Source: Thermodesulfatator indicus DSM 15286
Lineage (GTDB): Bacteria; Desulfobacterota; Thermodesulfobacteria; Thermodesulfobacteriales; Thermodesulfatatoraceae
NCBI RefSeq assembly: GCF_000217795.1
Contig: NC_015681.1
Span: forward strand, 372,001-436,000
Direction: 5' to 3'
DNA: 64,000 bases
Part shown: in pieces, positions 37,413 through 47,453 of the stretch
Layout: each line of letters starts with the position of its first letter
How positions within the stretch are numbered: the first letter of the stretch is position 1
Made by a program: the position numbers and the translations under genes
Notes under the pieces: generated by a model
Told to the model about the DNA's origin: nothing
Database searches by the model: none
What the model saw: only the letters and a program-made list of their open reading frames with translations

Positions 37413-37663
37413 TACCTCCAAACCTCTATAATTCTAATGTTCTGCTCTAGACAAACGAAAGAAAATAACAATTGTGAAATTACCACGGCTCCTAGATCAC
37501 CTAATGCTACCCCTCCCTTTTTCATACAAACTTGCTGGGATTAATAGTCTAATTTTTTAAATTGTCCTAATCTATTTATTTTTTTCATAAAAAAATTTTA
37601 TTTTTGGAATTTGTCCACCTTCCGAAAAGTATTCCAAGAATATTCTATTTTTGGGAGTCAAAA

Positions 37664-38275
37664 ATGAAAAAATTATTAAGTATCATTTTATTTGTTTTAG
37701 CTTTGCATATTAAGATAAGTTGGGCTGAGAATTTGGTTCTCTCTCAAGAGATAGCTTTTTGGCTGAACTATCGCTATTTAAAGTTAGAAAAAGAAACACT
37801 AAAAGTTATGATAGAGAATAAAGGTTTTGAAGGGGCTAGGCTATTTTTTAATGATCTAAATAGATGGTTAACCTTTGATATTAGAGAATATTTACACGAT
37901 TGGAATAGTAAAGTTGCTCTAGTATCCATAAACTATCGCAATCCTAGTCACAGTGCAGATAAAATTGCCCAAAAAATATTAATTTCTTATCAAAAAAAAC
38001 GGACAAATAACAAGAAAATAATGCCTGTGATCATAAGTAAAAATAATAAAACTACATATAGATATTTAATACCAATTTATGTCAAAAAAGATTGCTTAAA
38101 ATGCCATGGAAATAAACATGAAATTCCTTTTTCATATCAGACCAAAATAAAGAAATTTTATCCTAATGATAAAGCTATCAACTTAAAAGAAGGAGACATA
38201 ATAGGTGCTTTAAACATAGAGATCCCTATAGATACAATTGACTATTTATTGTCAGTTAGAAATTATTCTAAATAG
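37664..38275 (+). CDS. Exported monoheme DUF3365-type protein
   Basis: A 203-residue protein with a signal peptide (1-20, ending ISWA) and one c-type heme site, CLKCH (144-148), inside the pattern YRYLIPIYVKKDCLKCHG. This is the Tll0287-like DUF3365 sensor domain. The ATG at 37664, after GGGAG, gives a proper signal sequence. An in-frame upstream start would add 20 unrelated residues. The same domain occurs in the sensor kinase at 62187. Without a kinase part, it may be a soluble redox or gas sensor or an electron carrier. It stands alone and AT-rich. Confidence 0.82.
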   Translation: MKKLLSIILFVLALHIKISWAENLVLSQEIAFWLNYRYLKLEKETLKVMIENKGFEGARLFFNDLNRWLTFDIREYLHDWNSKVALVSINYRNPSHSADKIAQKILISYQKKRTNNKKIMPVIISKNNKTTYRYLIPIYVKKDCLKCHGNKHEIPFSYQTKIKKFYPNDKAINLKEGDIIGALNIEIPIDTIDYLLSVRNYSK

Positions 38276-38477: not shown

Positions 38478-39236
38478 TCAATGATTAGTAACAATAATTA
38501 AGTCTTTTAACTCTTTCGAAAGCTTTTTCACAATAGGATGAGTTTTTAGTTTTTCTGGATTTTTCTCTCCGTTAATATTTATTATTACCATTCTACCATA
38601 TCCTTTCCCGTAGGCGTTTATAAAATCATATACAGCTCCCACTACTACTAATTTTCCTTGATTTACAAGTTCCGGATAGAATGACATTGCCTGTATTACT
38701 TGCCAGTCTACATTACGTTCTACATTTCTCAGCCATCTAGTTTCCAAATTTCCCTTTTTATCATCTTTAGATAAAGGAATGTGAAGATGATCAAGCTCCT
38801 TTCTAATACCTTCAGTTTCTTTACTATAATCTCCCATAGCTGCTTTAACTGCTCCACAATGAGTATGACCAAGTATCAAAAGAATCGGAGTGTGGAGATG
38901 GAGAATTCCGTAATCTATTGATCCTCTAGAAACCACTAATTGATTACCAATGTTTCTTATAACAAATATTTTGTCTATAGGATCATCTAAAAGCACATTA
39001 CTATGCACACGAGCATCAGAACATGTTATCATTGTTACAAAAGGATGTTGAGAAGTTTGATAAGGTTTAAAATAATCATAATGGTGTTTTTTTACAAACT
39101 GATTATTGCCTTCAGCGATCCTGTTTAAAGCTTCTGAAGGAGAGATATTAGCTTTATAGCTGGAAGCAAAAACTAAAGAAGTTGACATAATTAAACTGAG
39201 AATAAATAACACCACAAACCTCCCTGTTCTTTTCAT
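38478..39236 (-). CDS. Exported beta-class carbonic anhydrase
   Basis: Interconverts CO2 and bicarbonate. Zinc ligands C72, H124 and C127 and the D74-R76 dyad (TCSDARVHSN, LGHTHCGAVKAA) are intact. The 252-residue protein has a signal peptide (1-25, ending LVFA), so it acts in the periplasm, unlike most bacterial beta enzymes. It may aid CO2 uptake for autotrophic growth or buffer the periplasm. It is a single gene with its own promoter. Confidence 0.92.
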   Translation of the reverse strand: MKRTGRFVVLFILSLIMSTSLVFASSYKANISPSEALNRIAEGNNQFVKKHHYDYFKPYQTSQHPFVTMITCSDARVHSNVLLDDPIDKIFVIRNIGNQLVVSRGSIDYGILHLHTPILLILGHTHCGAVKAAMGDYSKETEGIRKELDHLHIPLSKDDKKGNLETRWLRNVERNVDWQVIQAMSFYPELVNQGKLVVVGAVYDFINAYGKGYGRMVIININGEKNPEKLKTHPIVKKLSKELKDLIIVTNH

Positions 39237-39426: not shown

Positions 39427-41016
39427 TTATTTCTTAATAGTATGATTAGTAGATTTTTTATGGAAGGCCTTATCTATATGGCATGCAAGACACATTTCTG
39501 TAGTGGCCTTAAGCCTTAATTTATTATATTGGAGTGAACCTGTAGCTGCAGCCTTAAACTTAATAACTCCTTCTTGGTGTGGATTATGACAAGTAGCACA
39601 AATAATTCTTCCATTATATAATGGTATTTCTACACCTATTCTTTCTATGCTTGTATCTATAGCTTTTTTAATTTTTTTAGAAGGCTTAACCCCCGTATGG
39701 GTATAACCTGCAGGATGATTTTTTTCATAACCAGGATGACAACCGATACAACATTCATCAGGATCCTTCATAGCAAATTTTATATCTTTTAATCCAAAAT
39801 TATGCTCAGGATCAGGTACCGAACTATGACATAAAAGACATTTTTCTTTAATAACTTGCCCCTTTTTATCAATTTGATTTTCATGAGGGTTCATCCGTCT
39901 ATAAGTATTAGCTTCATGGCAAAGGAAACAAAATTGATATCGTGAAAGACCTGCTACCCTTAAAAATAGGGGATTTATTCGCTTTGCTTCTTTATAACGA
40001 AAACATTGAATACGAGCATTATGACAAGTCTCACAAGTTAGCAACCCATCCTGAAGAGGCAGAAATTTAGGAACTTTTATCTTTTTAGGTTTAATACCAA
40101 CCGGATGAATATCCGCTCTAGCAAACTGATCATTATGACATCTCTGGCACAACTGATTAAAATTTTTATTTTTTAAAGGAGCTCTATTAGGTGATGGCTG
40201 ATTAGAATGACAGTTTTTACAAAATAATTTCTTCCAGTGAGGATTAATACTACGAGACTCCCATGCTAATAATAAGTAAGTCTCTTTTATAGAATTCTCT
40301 TCTTTAGTCTTAAAATGATTTAGGTGGCAAGTAGTACAAATTGGCTTTTTATTAGAAAGATTCAAATTTAATTCTTTTGCCTTTTTTTGGATCTCTGGAT
40401 CTATAAATGGATTATATCCACGATCTATACTACAAATAACGTTCTGATGACAAGGAGTACAACTATACTTACCTAAAAAATCTTTAAGCCTTTGATTATT
40501 TTTATCTTTATCTATTGAAACTAAATGACAATATGTGCAATTATTTTTTTGTCTATCATGTACATTCTTTTTTTCTAAAAAATCTCCATGGCAAGCTACA
40601 CAGAGAACAGAATATAAATTTAAATTTGGAAGAATATCTCTATTATGTCTCAAAAAGTTCTTAGATCTAAGCAAATAATCTACGTTTTCTCTCAAATGTA
40701 TTTGATGACAAGTTGTACATGTAATTTTTCCATTATATAAAGGAAGTTTCATTAGAGAAAATATTATTGTACGATTTTTTACTTTTATTGCTGTAGGATG
40801 CTTCATGACTTGCTGATGGCATTTTTGACATATTTTAATTACATTACCACCATAAATTAGTTCTTTAGTCGGTTTACCATGATAATCTGATTTATGACAC
40901 GCTATACAATCTATCTTGTCATGTTTAGGTGTAAATATCTTTTGAGCTTTAGCAGCAGAAGCAAATATCAAATTAGCTACAAACAAAAGTATTATCTTTT
41001 TTATAAACATCTTCAT
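39427..41016 (-). CDS. 15-heme c-type cytochrome
   Basis: An exported 529-residue protein: signal peptide 1-24 (ending AKA), then fifteen CxxCH sites (CIACH, CQKCH, CTTCH, CVACH, CTYCH, CTPCH, CTTCH, CKNCH, CQRCH, CETCH, CFLCH, CLLCH, CIGCH, CATCH, CLACH) with many extra His as distal ligands. No membrane helix or enzymatic domain is visible. It is the last gene of the cytochrome operon and its ATG overlaps the stop of the 22-heme gene (ATGA). It is probably a periplasmic or surface electron conductor. The exact partner is unknown. Confidence 0.92.
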   Translation of the reverse strand: MKMFIKKIILLFVANLIFASAAKAQKIFTPKHDKIDCIACHKSDYHGKPTKELIYGGNVIKICQKCHQQVMKHPTAIKVKNRTIIFSLMKLPLYNGKITCTTCHQIHLRENVDYLLRSKNFLRHNRDILPNLNLYSVLCVACHGDFLEKKNVHDRQKNNCTYCHLVSIDKDKNNQRLKDFLGKYSCTPCHQNVICSIDRGYNPFIDPEIQKKAKELNLNLSNKKPICTTCHLNHFKTKEENSIKETYLLLAWESRSINPHWKKLFCKNCHSNQPSPNRAPLKNKNFNQLCQRCHNDQFARADIHPVGIKPKKIKVPKFLPLQDGLLTCETCHNARIQCFRYKEAKRINPLFLRVAGLSRYQFCFLCHEANTYRRMNPHENQIDKKGQVIKEKCLLCHSSVPDPEHNFGLKDIKFAMKDPDECCIGCHPGYEKNHPAGYTHTGVKPSKKIKKAIDTSIERIGVEIPLYNGRIICATCHNPHQEGVIKFKAAATGSLQYNKLRLKATTEMCLACHIDKAFHKKSTNHTIKK

Positions 41017-43616
41017 CTCTGAATTAAAGGAATTTCTCTACGATGTAACTCTTCTCGCATTTCAGCATCATGATAGTAGCGATACAAAAACAATGCACTT
41101 GGCCCATGGCAAATAGAACAGAAGTTTTCCATTAAATCTAGACGTTTTCTAAGAAAACTATTCATTACATTCCCTTCTACATTTTTCCAAGGAGCTTGTT
41201 CAGGATTATTATCATCCCAAATATGTGGATCGTGACAGGTAGAACAAGTAATAACTCCTTGAGGAGATCGCTTGCCATCTAAAGTAAATAGAGGAACATA
41301 TTTTGCTATCAAAAGTGACAGATATTTTTTATGATAACCAAAATATAGTTTAGTTGGATGAGAACCAACTGGTACAGTTTTGTCTGCTGCTGGGCCATCT
41401 TTACTATGACAGCCATAGCAAGTTTTTTCTATATAGTCTTGACCATTACCTAAAGGAGCTACCCAGAGATAAGGCTCATACAAAGCATTGTGAACACCAT
41501 GACAAGCGGTACACGGAGAAGCATCTTTTATAGATTTCCCTTGGAGATTAACATATTGAGGAGCTGTAACTCGCAAATCATGATCTGTACCGGTTACAAA
41601 GGCTTGATCATGATGGCAAGTTCCACATAATTTTGGATACTTTAAATTAGGTTTCCGGAGAAAACTGCTCATTTCAGTACCCTCAGTATTCTTTCCAGGA
41701 CCTTTTTTCTTCTTATTAGGTGCCCACTGGTGCGGATTATGACATGTACTACACTCCAAAAGATCTTTCTTATCTCCTACCTTATAAAATGGCAAATCTT
41801 TCGGAGGATTCTTCATCACTATCTTTATCGGATGAGTCTCCTCTCCTACAAGCTTCTTTGATGCTATCGCTTCCTTATTATGACAAGTTAAACAAAGATC
41901 TGATGGATAGGCCTCTTTAACATCTAGCTTGCGCGCCCATAAATATGGCCCTGTTGCATTATGCGGTACATGACAGGGACTACATAACCCCCCTGTCTTA
42001 ACATCTTCTCCTAAAATATTCTTCTCCTCAGGAGCTGTTACCCTTAAATCATGCTCCGTCTTCTCTACTAAAAGCTGATTTTGGTGACATGTTCCACAAA
42101 GAACAGGATTCAAACCAGCTGGCTTACGCAAAAAGCTAGTAAGGGGAGTACCCTCAGTATTCTTTCCAGGACCTTTTTTCTTCTTATTAGGTGCCCACTG
42201 GTGCGGATTATGACATGTACTACACTCCAAAAGATCTTTCTTATCTCCTACCTTATAAAATGGCAAATCTTTCGGAGGATTCTTCATCACTATCTTTATC
42301 GGATGAGTCTCCTCTCCTACAAGCTTCTTTGATGCTATCGCTTCCTTATTATGACAAGTTAAACAAAGATCTGATGGATAGGCCTCTTTAACATCTAGCT
42401 TGCGCGCCCATAAATATGGCCCTGTTGCATTATGCGGTACATGACAGGGACTACATAACCCCCCTGTCTTAACATCTTCTCCTAAAATATTCTTCTCCTC
42501 AGGAGCTGTTACCCTTAAATCATGCTCCGTCTTCTCTACTAGGAAGGCTTTAGGGTGACAGGAAGAACATAAAGGATTGTACTCAGCCACTAATGATTTT
42601 GGAAAAGATTTTTTTTGATGAATACCATGACAAGTAAGACACTGCAGAGTTCCTTTAGGACCTACAAAAAATTTTAAGCGAGATTTTTCAGGAAGTTTAA
42701 ACGTAATTTTTACAGGATGATTTTTTACAGGGGTTCCCTTTTCATTATGACAAATCAAACACAGTTGAGAATCAAAAATAGGAGCTGCCAGAAGCTTAAA
42801 AGGTTTTTGCGGAGCATCAGGTTGATGGGCTTTATGGCAAGAACTGCATTGCACCGTTCCCTTCTTACCAGCAAATAGTTTAGGAGCACCATGTTTTTCA
42901 TGAAATTTTACAAACAAAGGATGGTTTTTGCGCCGTGGACGTTGGGGCTCGGTTTCCCTGTATTTTTCTTCATGGCAGGCACTACACAAAGAAGAATCAC
43001 TAATAGGTAAAATAAAATTCTTTTCGGTTCCTCCATGAGCGGTATGGCAGCTTTCACAAATTATGTGTTTTGGATTAGTTACTGAAAGTACTGCCCCGGC
43101 TTCTACAAGTTTTTTAGGTATAGGACGGTCTCCCTTGTGCATAGGATGGTTACGATCTTTTTTGGTTTGTCTTACATGGCATAATTCACACATTATAGAA
43201 TCTTTATTAGAAATTCGTAAAAATATAACCCTTTCTATACTAGTATCTGTTGGTACTCCATGAGCAGAATGACAGGTACAACACACTATTTTACCATCTG
43301 GAGAAAGGGGAAAAATCTTTGGAATTCTAACTTTATCAGAAGGCTTAATATTGACTTTATGCCTATCTCTAAGCCAAACTTTTACCCGTGAATCCTCATT
43401 AGAACCATCGTGGCAGCTAAAACACATCATTTCATCACCAGCTACTTTTTCTACCTGCAAAGGATGCAAAGGAGTGCCACGGTGCTCGTAGTAAAAAGGT
43501 TCCATCCAACGAAAATGGCATATAGCACATTCTCTGGTGGGACTGGGCTTTAAAGTTACAGCCCAAACATTACCAGCCAAAAAATTTATTAATAGAAATA
43601 AAATCAAATAAAACAT
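41013..43616 (-). CDS. 22-heme c-type cytochrome with recently duplicated four-heme module
   Basis: An exported 867-residue protein with a signal peptide (1-19, ending VWA). I count 22 CxxCH sites: ten before the repeat, four in each of two repeats (CSPCH, CLTCH, CSTCH, CGTCH), then four more (CTACH, CYGCH, CSTCH, CSICH). The third site is CCTCH. The repeat period is 157 residues. Long spacers hold Lys, Pro and extra His. Such a heme string could span tens of nanometres. It follows the NHL gene with no gap and precedes the 15-heme gene. It resembles extracellular conductive cytochromes in general layout; I cannot assign a named family. Confidence 0.92.
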   Translation of the reverse strand: MFYLILFLLINFLAGNVWAVTLKPSPTRECAICHFRWMEPFYYEHRGTPLHPLQVEKVAGDEMMCFSCHDGSNEDSRVKVWLRDRHKVNIKPSDKVRIPKIFPLSPDGKIVCCTCHSAHGVPTDTSIERVIFLRISNKDSIMCELCHVRQTKKDRNHPMHKGDRPIPKKLVEAGAVLSVTNPKHIICESCHTAHGGTEKNFILPISDSSLCSACHEEKYRETEPQRPRRKNHPLFVKFHEKHGAPKLFAGKKGTVQCSSCHKAHQPDAPQKPFKLLAAPIFDSQLCLICHNEKGTPVKNHPVKITFKLPEKSRLKFFVGPKGTLQCLTCHGIHQKKSFPKSLVAEYNPLCSSCHPKAFLVEKTEHDLRVTAPEEKNILGEDVKTGGLCSPCHVPHNATGPYLWARKLDVKEAYPSDLCLTCHNKEAIASKKLVGEETHPIKIVMKNPPKDLPFYKVGDKKDLLECSTCHNPHQWAPNKKKKGPGKNTEGTPLTSFLRKPAGLNPVLCGTCHQNQLLVEKTEHDLRVTAPEEKNILGEDVKTGGLCSPCHVPHNATGPYLWARKLDVKEAYPSDLCLTCHNKEAIASKKLVGEETHPIKIVMKNPPKDLPFYKVGDKKDLLECSTCHNPHQWAPNKKKKGPGKNTEGTEMSSFLRKPNLKYPKLCGTCHHDQAFVTGTDHDLRVTAPQYVNLQGKSIKDASPCTACHGVHNALYEPYLWVAPLGNGQDYIEKTCYGCHSKDGPAADKTVPVGSHPTKLYFGYHKKYLSLLIAKYVPLFTLDGKRSPQGVITCSTCHDPHIWDDNNPEQAPWKNVEGNVMNSFLRKRLDLMENFCSICHGPSALFLYRYYHDAEMREELHRREIPLIQR
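41676..42070. repeat. 395-bp direct repeat, copy 1
   Basis: Reads identical to 42147-42541 by eye, at an offset of 471 bp (157 codons, in frame). It encodes part of the four-heme module of the 22-heme cytochrome. The two copies are separated by 76 bp that differ from the matching sequence beside copy 1. Full identity including synonymous sites means recent duplication or gene conversion. Confidence 0.9.
42147..42541. repeat. 395-bp direct repeat, copy 2
   Basis: Second copy of the repeat at 41676-42070. Identity stops abruptly on both sides: upstream at the AGTACCCTC boundary and downstream after TTCTCTACTA. Recombination between copies would remove or add exactly one four-heme module without breaking the frame. 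Confidence 0.9.
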
Positions 43617-44582
43617 CTAAGGTACTTCTTCTAAGACTAACACTCTATTTTTAATCATTTCTACCACATAAAGCCTTTTACCGTTGACAGCTAAACCAAC
43701 TGGAGTTTGAAAACGCCAGAGTTTTCCGTCAGGCCCTCCCACGGCTCCTAAGAAATTTCCTTGTTTGGTAAAAATTTGTATTACCCCTACATAACTGTCA
43801 GAAACAAAAACTTTCCCATCTTTAGAAACAGCAACCCCTTTCGGGCGAAAAAACTGACCCGGATCAATTCCCCATTCACCTATAAATCGCAAAAAATGGC
43901 CATTTTTATCAAGAACCTGTACCCTGGTATTAATTACTTCCACCACATAAATATTTCCTTGCTCGTCTGTATCCATTAAAAATGGATAGCGAAATTCTTC
44001 CGGCCCTCGGCCCATTTCTCCTGTAGCCCAAACAATTTTCCCTTTATAATCTAGGGCTAAGACTCTATGGTTATCATTATCTACGGCGATATATGTCTTT
44101 CCGTCTATACCAAAGCCTACATCAGTAGGGTCAGAAGGCCTCCCACCCTTTGGAGAAGGTACACTAATATAATGAGGCTTATTAATGCCTGGAGGGAACA
44201 GAGCTAATCTATGGTTTTGAGAATCAGCTACCAGAACCTCACCTTTAGCAGATACTGCTAAACCTAATGGCCATTTTAAGAGCTTGTCTCCTCCCAAAGT
44301 AAACAAAGGTTGGCCTAAAGCATTAAAAATGCGTACTAAGTTTTGAGTTCCATCTAGTACATATATCCATCCTTCAGGACCTATATCTACATCGCTAGGA
44401 AGCTTAAAACCCTCAATTTTGAATAACAGTTTATACTTGAATATTGGAAGAATACTTTTATCACTTTCCGATTGCGATAAACAATTTGTTGGCCAAAAAA
44501 CTATAAGGGTAAAAATAAATAGAAATATATATCGCCACCTGTTAAGTACTCTTTTTGCAGTTATTAACAGGTGGCGACACAT
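43617..44582 (-). CDS. NHL-repeat beta-propeller protein of the cytochrome operon
   Basis: A 321-residue protein with a basic N-terminus, one hydrophobic signal/anchor segment (about 18-35) and then repeated NHL units (LPSDVDIGPEGWIYVLD, PLGLAVSAKGEVLVADSQNHR, RPKGVAVSKDGKVFVSDS) forming a six-bladed propeller. NHL proteins often sit beside multiheme cytochromes in electron-transfer clusters, probably as scaffolds. It lies between the cytochrome b/c fusion gene and the 22-heme gene. Its first codons form a strong hairpin in the mRNA. No other in-frame start codon is close, so ATG at 44582 (after AGGAG) stands. Confidence 0.88.
   Translation of the reverse strand: MCRHLLITAKRVLNRWRYIFLFIFTLIVFWPTNCLSQSESDKSILPIFKYKLLFKIEGFKLPSDVDIGPEGWIYVLDGTQNLVRIFNALGQPLFTLGGDKLLKWPLGLAVSAKGEVLVADSQNHRLALFPPGINKPHYISVPSPKGGRPSDPTDVGFGIDGKTYIAVDNDNHRVLALDYKGKIVWATGEMGRGPEEFRYPFLMDTDEQGNIYVVEVINTRVQVLDKNGHFLRFIGEWGIDPGQFFRPKGVAVSKDGKVFVSDSYVGVIQIFTKQGNFLGAVGGPDGKLWRFQTPVGLAVNGKRLYVVEMIKNRVLVLEEVP
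44532..44577 (-). promoter_or_regulatory. 14-bp perfect inverted repeat at the start of the NHL gene
   Basis: Arms at 44532-44545 (TCGCCACCTGTTAA) and 44564-44577 are exact complements around an 18-base loop. In the mRNA the stem begins five bases after the A of the start codon and covers roughly codons 2-17. It could slow initiation on the NHL gene, attenuate the operon or melt with temperature. Function is inferred. Confidence 0.6.
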
Positions 44583-44592
44583 TATTTTACTC

Positions 44593-46194
44593 CTATTTAG
44601 TTTTTTCGGGTCGAAGTAGGCGCTGTTGGCGCATCAATTCAGGCTCAAACATAGTTGGAAGATAGAATTTCATGTAGCGATCAATCATTCTAGCTACTTC
44701 AGTTCTATAAAGGCTAGCTGCCCTTTCTGGTGGATAACCTACAGCAACAAAGTCTATATATCCATTCTTACGATGACATTCGTCACATTGGATAGGCTTA
44801 CGAGACAAGTGTCTATGTAATAAAGCTTTGGCACGAGCCTGCTCCTCTGGTGTTAATTTATCTTTTATTTTTAAGTATTCTTCAACAAATTCTTTATTCA
44901 TCTTATCCATGCGTATTTTCTTACCATCAGGTGTTGTAAGTACAGGAACAAGCATAGCTCCATATACACCATTATCCCCTTTAATTGTAGTAACCACTTC
45001 TCCAGTTTCATTGTTAAACCATACAAAATTAATTTTTCCTTTAACTTCATCTTTTCTAACATGACAAACTTCACAAGCAAAGAAATAAGTATGCATATTT
45101 AGTAGAGAACGCACCTCAGGAGACTTTGAGTGAGGATATATTCCATGACACTTTATACAAACTGGAGGATCTGACAATTTTAAATAAATGGTATTATCAA
45201 TATTATGAAAATGCCCCATCCATTTTCTAGCTTCGGATTCTTCTTTTATCTGCTTTTCAATAAGCAATGAAGCTTCTTGTATTTTAGAGGTAGCTTCTGT
45301 AGGAAAGTAAAGTAGTTTAGCTAGAAAGAGAAAAATACCTATAAAAAATATTATAGAAGGAATAGCTAGAAGCTTAAATAAATAATGAAAAAGTAATTTA
45401 ATTCCTTTTGGCCTCACATATTTATGATGCATTCTATGTAACTCTTCTAAATCCTCTTCAGACAATGGAATTAACTTACCTTCTTTAACAAGCCGCTCAT
45501 ACCATAATGGATGTTCCTCTAAAACCTCATAAACATGCATTTTTCCGTCTATCCAAATCCAACTCATTGGATATTTACCGGGCTTCCAATGTACTGCGTA
45601 AAAATGCCATACGATAATGGCCATAGTAGCTAAAGTAGCTTCCATTGTATGGATAAGATCAGACAATTCAATAGCAAAAAGGCTAAAATGAGTATTAAAC
45701 CATAATATTATTCCAGTAACAGAAACAATAATAGTACCAGCTACTAAAGCCAAATATTCCATTTTTTCCTTATAATCAAAACGATCAAACTTTGGGGGTT
45801 CAGGCCGTTTACCTAAAAAGTAAGCAATATTTTGAAAAATATCTATAGCATCTTTTTTGCGAGGTATCATATCTTTTATAAAGCGGCGACCATCAGGATG
45901 GAAAATACAATAAAGTATATGATAAAAACAAGTGATAATCATAGCTGCGCCGGCATAATGGTGAATAGCTGTACGATAATCATAAAAACTTGGACCTACT
46001 CTTTCTACAATTTTATTAACCCAATCTTCTGGAAGCTTTAGTAAAAAACCAGTTAACACTAGAAGAAAAAAGGTAATAACTGTCAACAAATGTTGCAACC
46101 TTTCGTGCCCATTAAGCCTTACTACATATTGATTTTTAGGATCAACATTTAATTCTTTTAGTTCTCTGTTTTCCATATCTCCATCCTCACTCAT
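44593..46194 (-). CDS. Cytochrome b fused to triheme c-type domain
   Basis: A 533-residue membrane protein. The N-terminal half is a formate-dehydrogenase-gamma-like cytochrome b with about four helices and paired histidines (HERLQHLL, AIHHYAG, FYHILYCIFH, IVWHFYAVHW). A fifth helix (about 270-292) leads to a periplasmic C-terminal domain with CIKCH, CEVCH and CDECH, and a terminal Arg-rich tail. It is the best candidate for the quinol-oxidising entry point of the operon, passing electrons from b hemes to c hemes within one chain. No molybdopterin or hydrogenase subunit accompanies it. Confidence 0.88.
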   Translation of the reverse strand: MSEDGDMENRELKELNVDPKNQYVVRLNGHERLQHLLTVITFFLLVLTGFLLKLPEDWVNKIVERVGPSFYDYRTAIHHYAGAAMIITCFYHILYCIFHPDGRRFIKDMIPRKKDAIDIFQNIAYFLGKRPEPPKFDRFDYKEKMEYLALVAGTIIVSVTGIILWFNTHFSLFAIELSDLIHTMEATLATMAIIVWHFYAVHWKPGKYPMSWIWIDGKMHVYEVLEEHPLWYERLVKEGKLIPLSEEDLEELHRMHHKYVRPKGIKLLFHYLFKLLAIPSIIFFIGIFLFLAKLLYFPTEATSKIQEASLLIEKQIKEESEARKWMGHFHNIDNTIYLKLSDPPVCIKCHGIYPHSKSPEVRSLLNMHTYFFACEVCHVRKDEVKGKINFVWFNNETGEVVTTIKGDNGVYGAMLVPVLTTPDGKKIRMDKMNKEFVEEYLKIKDKLTPEEQARAKALLHRHLSRKPIQCDECHRKNGYIDFVAVGYPPERAASLYRTEVARMIDRYMKFYLPTMFEPELMRQQRLLRPEKTK

Positions 46195-46208
46195 TTTTAA
46201 ATTTTATA

Positions 46209-47351
46209 TTAATGGTGATCTTTCCGTCTAATTGTACGATAAAAATCCATCATTTGATGAAGCATCATTCCACCTATAACAAAAGTGATTAGCAAAGTAT
46301 ATAAAACTTTTACCCAGTAGTATATTTTTCTCTGCATGAGTTCTTGAGGACTTAATTCTTCTTCTTTTACATCAGAAGCAGTAATTTTTGATTTAGCTTT
46401 TAGTTCTTTTAATGGATCTCCCGTTAACCCTATAGGTACTTTATGAATTTTTCCTGAAGCAAACTTTTCAGTAGCTCCAGGGTGACATTGGATTATTCCA
46501 TCAGGACTAGCACAAGTTAACGGTCTATTTGCGGGAGCTAGAGGTGAGTTAGGGTCTTTTACCGAAAGCATATTATGTATATCGCGTTTGAAACGTGGAG
46601 GAGCATGACAACTAATACAGTCCGGAGCATTAGGATCATTATAAAGAACCGCCTTCCAATGAAAAGTATCTTTATATCCAGACACAGGTTCTAAACCGTG
46701 ACGTGCCATCATATTAGCATCGGCGTGACAAGCAAGACACAAATCAACTAACTCTTTAGGGGTCTTAGCCCGATGCATACGATGAGCAAAGTGTTGATAA
46801 AATCTTTTGGTCCACTTTTCTTGGGGATGACATCCCAAACAGCGTCTCAGAACTTCTGGATTTATTCCTGGCTTTAAAGTTCTCAGGTCAACTACAGGCT
46901 TATAAATTTGATTTACATGGCACTCAGAACACTTAGGATAATCTTCAGGATATTTTTTGAGATTTGGAGGTTCCCCAGGCCAGTGGACACCTTCTTTTAA
47001 ACGGGCACAAATTGGTTCGTGGGAAAACTCTTTATTAGTAGAAGGTTCCTTTATATGGCACTTATTAGCACAGTTTACTTTTTTAACATTATTGTGAGGG
47101 ATTACATCTAAGCCTATATGACAATAGCGACAAAGTATTTCTCCATGAACTGATTGAGCATATAGTTTAGGGTTCACATAAAAAAGCCTCATCTTTCCTG
47201 TCTTTTGGTCAATATAAGCTAGACCAGGATACCTATGACAGATAGCACAATTCTCTTCGTCTGGAGATGTGTTAACCGAAGCTACTACTAGGGAAGAACT
47301 ACAAAGAAAAGCAAATAAAAAACACAAAATTAAAGGCGCTTTGGGTTTCAT
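46209..47351 (-). CDS. Membrane-anchored multiheme cytochrome c (six canonical plus two atypical sites)
   Basis: A 380-residue protein with a signal peptide (1-24, ending VVA) and a C-terminal helix (about 345-368) that anchors it to the inner membrane. Canonical sites are CAICH, CRYCH, CSECH, CLGCH, CLACH and CISCH. Two others are odd: CANKCH (three residues between the cysteines) and CASPDGIIQCH (eight residues). The ATG at 47351 follows AAAGGAG; a longer in-frame start is less likely. It is the first gene of the cytochrome operon, 14 bp upstream of the cytochrome b/c gene, and probably forms a complex with it. Confidence 0.9.
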   Translation of the reverse strand: MKPKAPLILCFLFAFLCSSSLVVASVNTSPDEENCAICHRYPGLAYIDQKTGKMRLFYVNPKLYAQSVHGEILCRYCHIGLDVIPHNNVKKVNCANKCHIKEPSTNKEFSHEPICARLKEGVHWPGEPPNLKKYPEDYPKCSECHVNQIYKPVVDLRTLKPGINPEVLRRCLGCHPQEKWTKRFYQHFAHRMHRAKTPKELVDLCLACHADANMMARHGLEPVSGYKDTFHWKAVLYNDPNAPDCISCHAPPRFKRDIHNMLSVKDPNSPLAPANRPLTCASPDGIIQCHPGATEKFASGKIHKVPIGLTGDPLKELKAKSKITASDVKEEELSPQELMQRKIYYWVKVLYTLLITFVIGGMMLHQMMDFYRTIRRKDHH

Positions 47352-47453
47352 TTTCTTGCTCCTTTTATAAATTTTTCTTAAAAAATAATCTTTAAAACCT
47401 GAAATTATCAAAATTAATAATTAAAATCACTTAAAATCTTGATCGTTAGAGAG

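Follow-up and report, generated by a model that had tools for sequence, protein, structure and literature searches.

The gene for a 22-heme c-type cytochrome in Thermodesulfatator indicus DSM 15286 contains two copies of a 395-bp core that are identical at every position, including the synonymous ones, and are set between linkers of much older divergence. We consider it probable that the gene is an array of ancient tandem tetraheme modules, encoding a periplasmic or extracellular wire protein, and that the cores of modules 1 and 2 were recently homogenised by intragenic gene conversion. The stretch analysed, 64 kb of the chromosome, is referred to below as the window, and all coordinates are positions in it.

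Identical cores and diverged linkers

The reading frame contains 22 CxxCH motifs, the number given in the preliminary description of this DNA. A signal-like N-terminal helix and an N-terminal part with 10 CxxCH are followed by three tetraheme modules (Table 1), the third of which shares 39 % aa identity with the core. The module period is 157 aa with four CxxCH, three of them in the core and the fourth in the diverged linker; the earlier statement that each copy adds four hemes is therefore correct for the period but not for the identical core. The core of module 1 comprises three CxxCH (aa 388, 418 and 465) together with all four non-CxxCH His of that module, and the core of module 2 has its CxxCH at aa 545, 575 and 622. 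The distal His is conserved in each module, at aa 365, 395, 438 and 472 in module 1 and at the same positions in the others.

Table 1. Features of the cytochrome locus (positions in the window)
Feature	Position	Strand	Remarks
22-heme c-type cytochrome gene	41013..43616	minus	867 aa; ORF, 22 CxxCH; Pfam Paired_CXXCH_1, Cytochrome_C7
Identical core, module 1 copy	42147..42541	minus	aa 359-490; 395/395 identical to 41676-42070
Identical core, module 2 copy	41676..42070	minus	aa 516-647
Linker L1, module 1 to module 2	42071..42146	minus	holds fourth CxxCH (aa 507)
Linker L2, module 2 to module 3	41600..41675	minus	holds fourth CxxCH (aa 664)
Third tetraheme module, diverged	41103..41597	minus	module HMM match aa 674-838
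Multiheme cytochrome c, conserved partner gene	39427..41016	minus	529 aa
NHL-repeat beta-propeller protein, conserved partner gene	43617..44582	minus	
Membrane cytochrome b561-like protein, conserved partner gene	44593..46194	minus	C-terminal c-heme motifs
Multiheme cytochrome c, conserved partner gene	46209..47411	minus	C-terminal hydrophobic (TM-like) segment

The two cores lie at an offset of 471 nt and agree in all 395 nt, as first reported, and in 128 of 128 informative codons. The pair is the only exact run of at least 20 nt at this offset in the region 40900-43700 and the only exact same-strand repeat of at least 40 nt in the window. The 22-heme locus is present in one copy in the genome (one contig, 2,322,224 bp). 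An assembly or polishing artefact might be suspected, as the sequence comes from one assembly. Against it stand the single closed contig, the intact frame and heme pattern and the different linkers and flanks of the two copies, which a false duplication would not have, and such an error is considered very improbable.

Compared over 78 nt (76 nt plus the codon edges), L1 and L2 share 41 nt and 14 of 26 aa, in agreement with the divergence between the copies noted before. Only three of the 14 codons specifying the same residue are identical in L1 and L2, against all 128 in the core, and the difference between 36/76 substituted positions in the linker and 0/395 in the core is highly significant (Fisher p = 5e-33). 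The absence of differences in 395 nt sets a ceiling of about 0.8 % (95 %) on the divergence of the core. The codon comparison shows both linkers to be old and saturated at synonymous sites. An identity tract that includes synonymous sites inside otherwise old paralogues, as expected of intragenic conversion, is present.

A recent duplication of the whole 471-bp unit was excluded, because a fresh tandem copy would carry identical linkers and only 395 of the 471 nt are identical; the preliminary description had rightly expected a simple recent duplication to leave all 471 bp alike. It had offered two ways out, homogenisation of the core, which is favoured here, and change of the linkers under selection. 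In the latter case the whole unit would have been duplicated recently and the linkers would have diverged under positive selection, and the position of the fourth heme site in the linker, between modules, makes partner-specific change plausible. However, 11 of the 14 same-residue codons differ while the core has not changed at all, a contrast beyond protein selection, which cannot saturate synonymous sites in 76 nt and spare 395; this explanation is hardly credible and was excluded.

Origin of the identical tract

In the preferred reading, gene conversion, the old tandem modules would supply homology in register, and RecA-type recombination or template switching between modules would occasionally copy one core onto the other; here at least 395 bp would have been overwritten, with the linkers untouched. 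The same register would allow an exchange between the identical cores to remove or add one 471-bp unit without loss of frame, so that 22 hemes become 18 or 26 and each module retains its four CxxCH and its four further His. Gene conversion would be the simplest single step leading to the present sequence.

The gene of the sister genus (G008, also L012) encodes 719 aa with 18 hemes and has a single copy of this module type, in the order: flank upstream of module 1, core, L2-type linker, module 3. Its linker shares 54/78 nt with L2, which is about the same divergence as found for the core (68 %) and for module 3 (71 %). In a genome of the same genus (G004) the last linker is also of the L2 type (47/78 nt shared with L2), and L1 stands apart from all linkers compared (41-44/78 nt). 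Since L2 is common to the sister genus and L1 is apart from all, the split between L1 and L2 predates the split of the genera. The architecture in the sister genus would be the product expected from core-by-core recombination, being 471 nt shorter, in frame and with L2 beside module 3, and we infer that such an event took place. In G004 the gene is interrupted twice by a contig end within the core, as near-identical repeats would bring about; this circumstantial observation is only suggestive.

A module pair is found at the same place in five homologues from Desulfobulbales and Desulfobacterales (L013-L017), where it is diverged throughout (47-52 % aa) and where no exact repeat of at least 24 nt was detected. 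The preliminary description had named orthologues with a diverged pair as a finding that would speak against its proposal. As the cores there are diverged too, these homologues rule out no more than a recent origin for the pair itself, and they support conversion. In the tree, the modules of the near pairs L013/L014 and L016/L017 grouped by position, first with first and second with second, with strong support; the deeper split between modules 1 and 2 was not resolved, so direct homology to the two-module state of Desulfobulbales is not proven. The core of T. indicus is 47-52 % identical to the first and 42-52 % to the second module of these outgroups, values that do not decide the direction of conversion, and the linker tree, built on 26 aa and hence too short, assigned neither L1 nor L2 to an outgroup position.

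The linker comparisons also bear on the idea that the 471-bp unit was duplicated recently and that one linker was then replaced by recombination with a foreign L1-type allele. L1 lies outside the group of the three linkers from the Thermodesulfobacteriales family and its best match is linker 1 of Desulfocapsa (15/26 aa), as such an import might leave it. The import of 76 bp exactly between identical cores, with no divergence brought into the cores, is nevertheless less simple than conversion, and we judge this course of events improbable.

Module number in the homologous genes

A module-derived HMM detected 1-9 tetraheme modules behind an N-terminal heme region in 66 homologous genes, with totals of 12 to 49 hemes, some of the genes being cut by contig ends. 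This range and the single module in the sister genus lend comparative support to the earlier suggestion that recombination changes the length of the heme wire, and recombination appears to be a route to a longer or shorter protein wire. Two homologous genes in one genome (L164 and L165 in G274) are of high GC and encode about 2,100 aa, 48-49 CxxCH and nine modules each, with patchy similarity among the modules. A 38-heme homologue (L064) has a younger, larger block of about 900-1000 nt, recently duplicated at an offset of 1233 nt and mostly with 75-97 % identity.

Gains and losses of this kind could also account for the T. indicus gene without any conversion. A core-linker unit would be duplicated by unequal crossing-over or slippage, and the other core, but not its linker, would then be lost by a further crossover close to the 3' end of a core. 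The end sequence would be the same as after gene conversion, and both the module counts, which speak for repeated gain and loss, and the recent block in L064 agree with such a history. It takes two events, one of them a crossover right at the core/linker edge, where conversion needs one, and we regard it as possible but rather unlikely.

Among 364 within-gene module pairs, modules 1 and 2 of T. indicus are the most alike and have the longest synonymous run (128 codons). Modules 5 and 6 of L165 share a shorter, tract-like run of 34 codons (p 2.5e-4 before correction) and weaker runs were found in L162 and L164 (p about 4e-4); none of the three is significant after correction for 364 tests. On the strength of its run, the L165 pair is a good candidate for the same process. 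Homogenisation, as far as these sequences reflect it, is unusual in these genes at any one time and change in module number is common. The T. indicus gene appears to catch one of the molecular events by which giant cytochromes gain or lose hemes step by step, with identical cores between old linkers and the deletion product in the sister genus.

Gene cluster and comparison with known systems

The module gene is part of a cluster (39427-47411) whose order is kept in many genomes: multiheme cytochrome c with a TM-like end, cytochrome b561/c, NHL protein, module gene and a further multiheme cytochrome c. Conservation of the five-gene cluster extends over Thermodesulfobacteriota, Gamma- and Betaproteobacteria and Neomarinimicrobiota, the cytochrome b/c being a single fused gene in close relatives and split into two genes in many others. 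Electrons may plausibly pass from the quinone pool by way of the membrane cytochrome b to the module array. A carbonic anhydrase gene (Pro_CA family, 38478-39236, minus) with a signal-like N-terminus adjoins the cluster, and the gene at 37604-38275 (plus) encodes a Tll0287-like protein, perhaps a heme-based sensor, with one CxxCH.

The PCC3 multiheme cytochromes of Fe(II) oxidisers have large heme numbers, internal repeats of heme sites and a heme number that varies between species (PMC5566968, PMC10734462), and in all three respects the protein described here is like them. Membership in the PCC3 porin-cytochrome systems was rejected, since the two W-x3-H-x13-H motifs and the SGxxG motif are absent from the cytochrome b of the cluster and from its relatives L022, L028 and L046. 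Inspection of the ORFs listed for the surroundings of the cluster revealed no recognisable porin.

The closest solved relatives of the modules include a nanowire cytochrome. Against all solved chains the module profile gave 9YUQ (E 2.2e-9) and OmcE (E 2.5e-9) as the top two matches, with NrfA far behind (2e-5); OmcE is a tetraheme nanowire subunit of Geobacter sulfurreducens (PDB 7TFS), and 9YUQ is a related entry. Each module is like OmcE in the succession T-x-HD-L, CxxCH-x-PHNA...LW, CxSCH, HP...LP-(L/F)-(F/Y), CxxCH..H and FLR...LCxxCH. A two-module AlphaFold model (mean pLDDT 76) aligned with the four-heme chain of OmcE with Z 7.7 and rmsd 3.1 over 124 residues, OmcE being the only chain with a Z of 2 or above. 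Foldseek with either model gave no match at E <= 0.001, its signal being weak (E 0.41). Each module is accordingly inferred to be OmcE-like, with co-linear four CxxCH and distal His, and the sequence evidence for this is firmer than the structural evidence.

In OmcE filaments an interfacial heme is common to neighbouring subunits through a His (PMC12954529, PMC9473688), and in OmcS, as in OmcE, the interfacial heme is ligated by a His of the next unit (PMC12954529). Here the position corresponding to the OmcE interface is occupied by the linker, which carries the fourth heme site, and then by the T-x-H-D of the module that follows, and by this analogy the linkers may be the module-to-module interfaces, which would be why L1 and L2 stay distinct. 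Judged by profile and model, the gene product looks like nanowire subunits joined covalently into one chain. A more speculative and rather doubtful extension is a genetically concatenated nanowire, in which OmcE-like subunits are joined head to tail, the cores are kept recombinogenic, module number and wire length vary in frame between cells or strains and the linkers keep the contacts specific. If the modules were packed as in OmcE, each would contribute about 3.4 nm of wire. A widespread five-gene electron-transfer cluster is thus suggested to encode covalent arrays of 1-9 OmcE-like subunits, and natural variants in module number make the relation of wire length to function directly testable. 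Unlike OmcE, a polymer of separate chains, the protein carries its three modules on a single polypeptide, after an N-terminal part with ten hemes, and genes for a membrane cytochrome b and an NHL protein lie in the same cluster.

Both intragenic conversion and modular cytochrome evolution are already known, and what appears to be new is the exact recent tract in an OmcE-like array together with the deletion product in the sister genus; a partial literature search found no published description of such a tract in an OmcE-like array. Intragenic gene conversion homogenises repeated modules in bacterial assembly-line genes (PMC9205934; review by Santoyo and Romero 2005 cited there). The likeness lies in the homogenisation of repeated modules within one gene by recombination, and the differences in the other class of protein and in the sharp end of the tract at old linkers. 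In the modular evolution of multiheme cytochromes described as 'grafting and pruning' (Soares et al. 2022, cited in PMC9473688), the heme number changes by whole modules. The T. indicus gene differs from that description in showing the recombination tract itself, exact and recent, between two modules, together with the deletion product that would be predicted.
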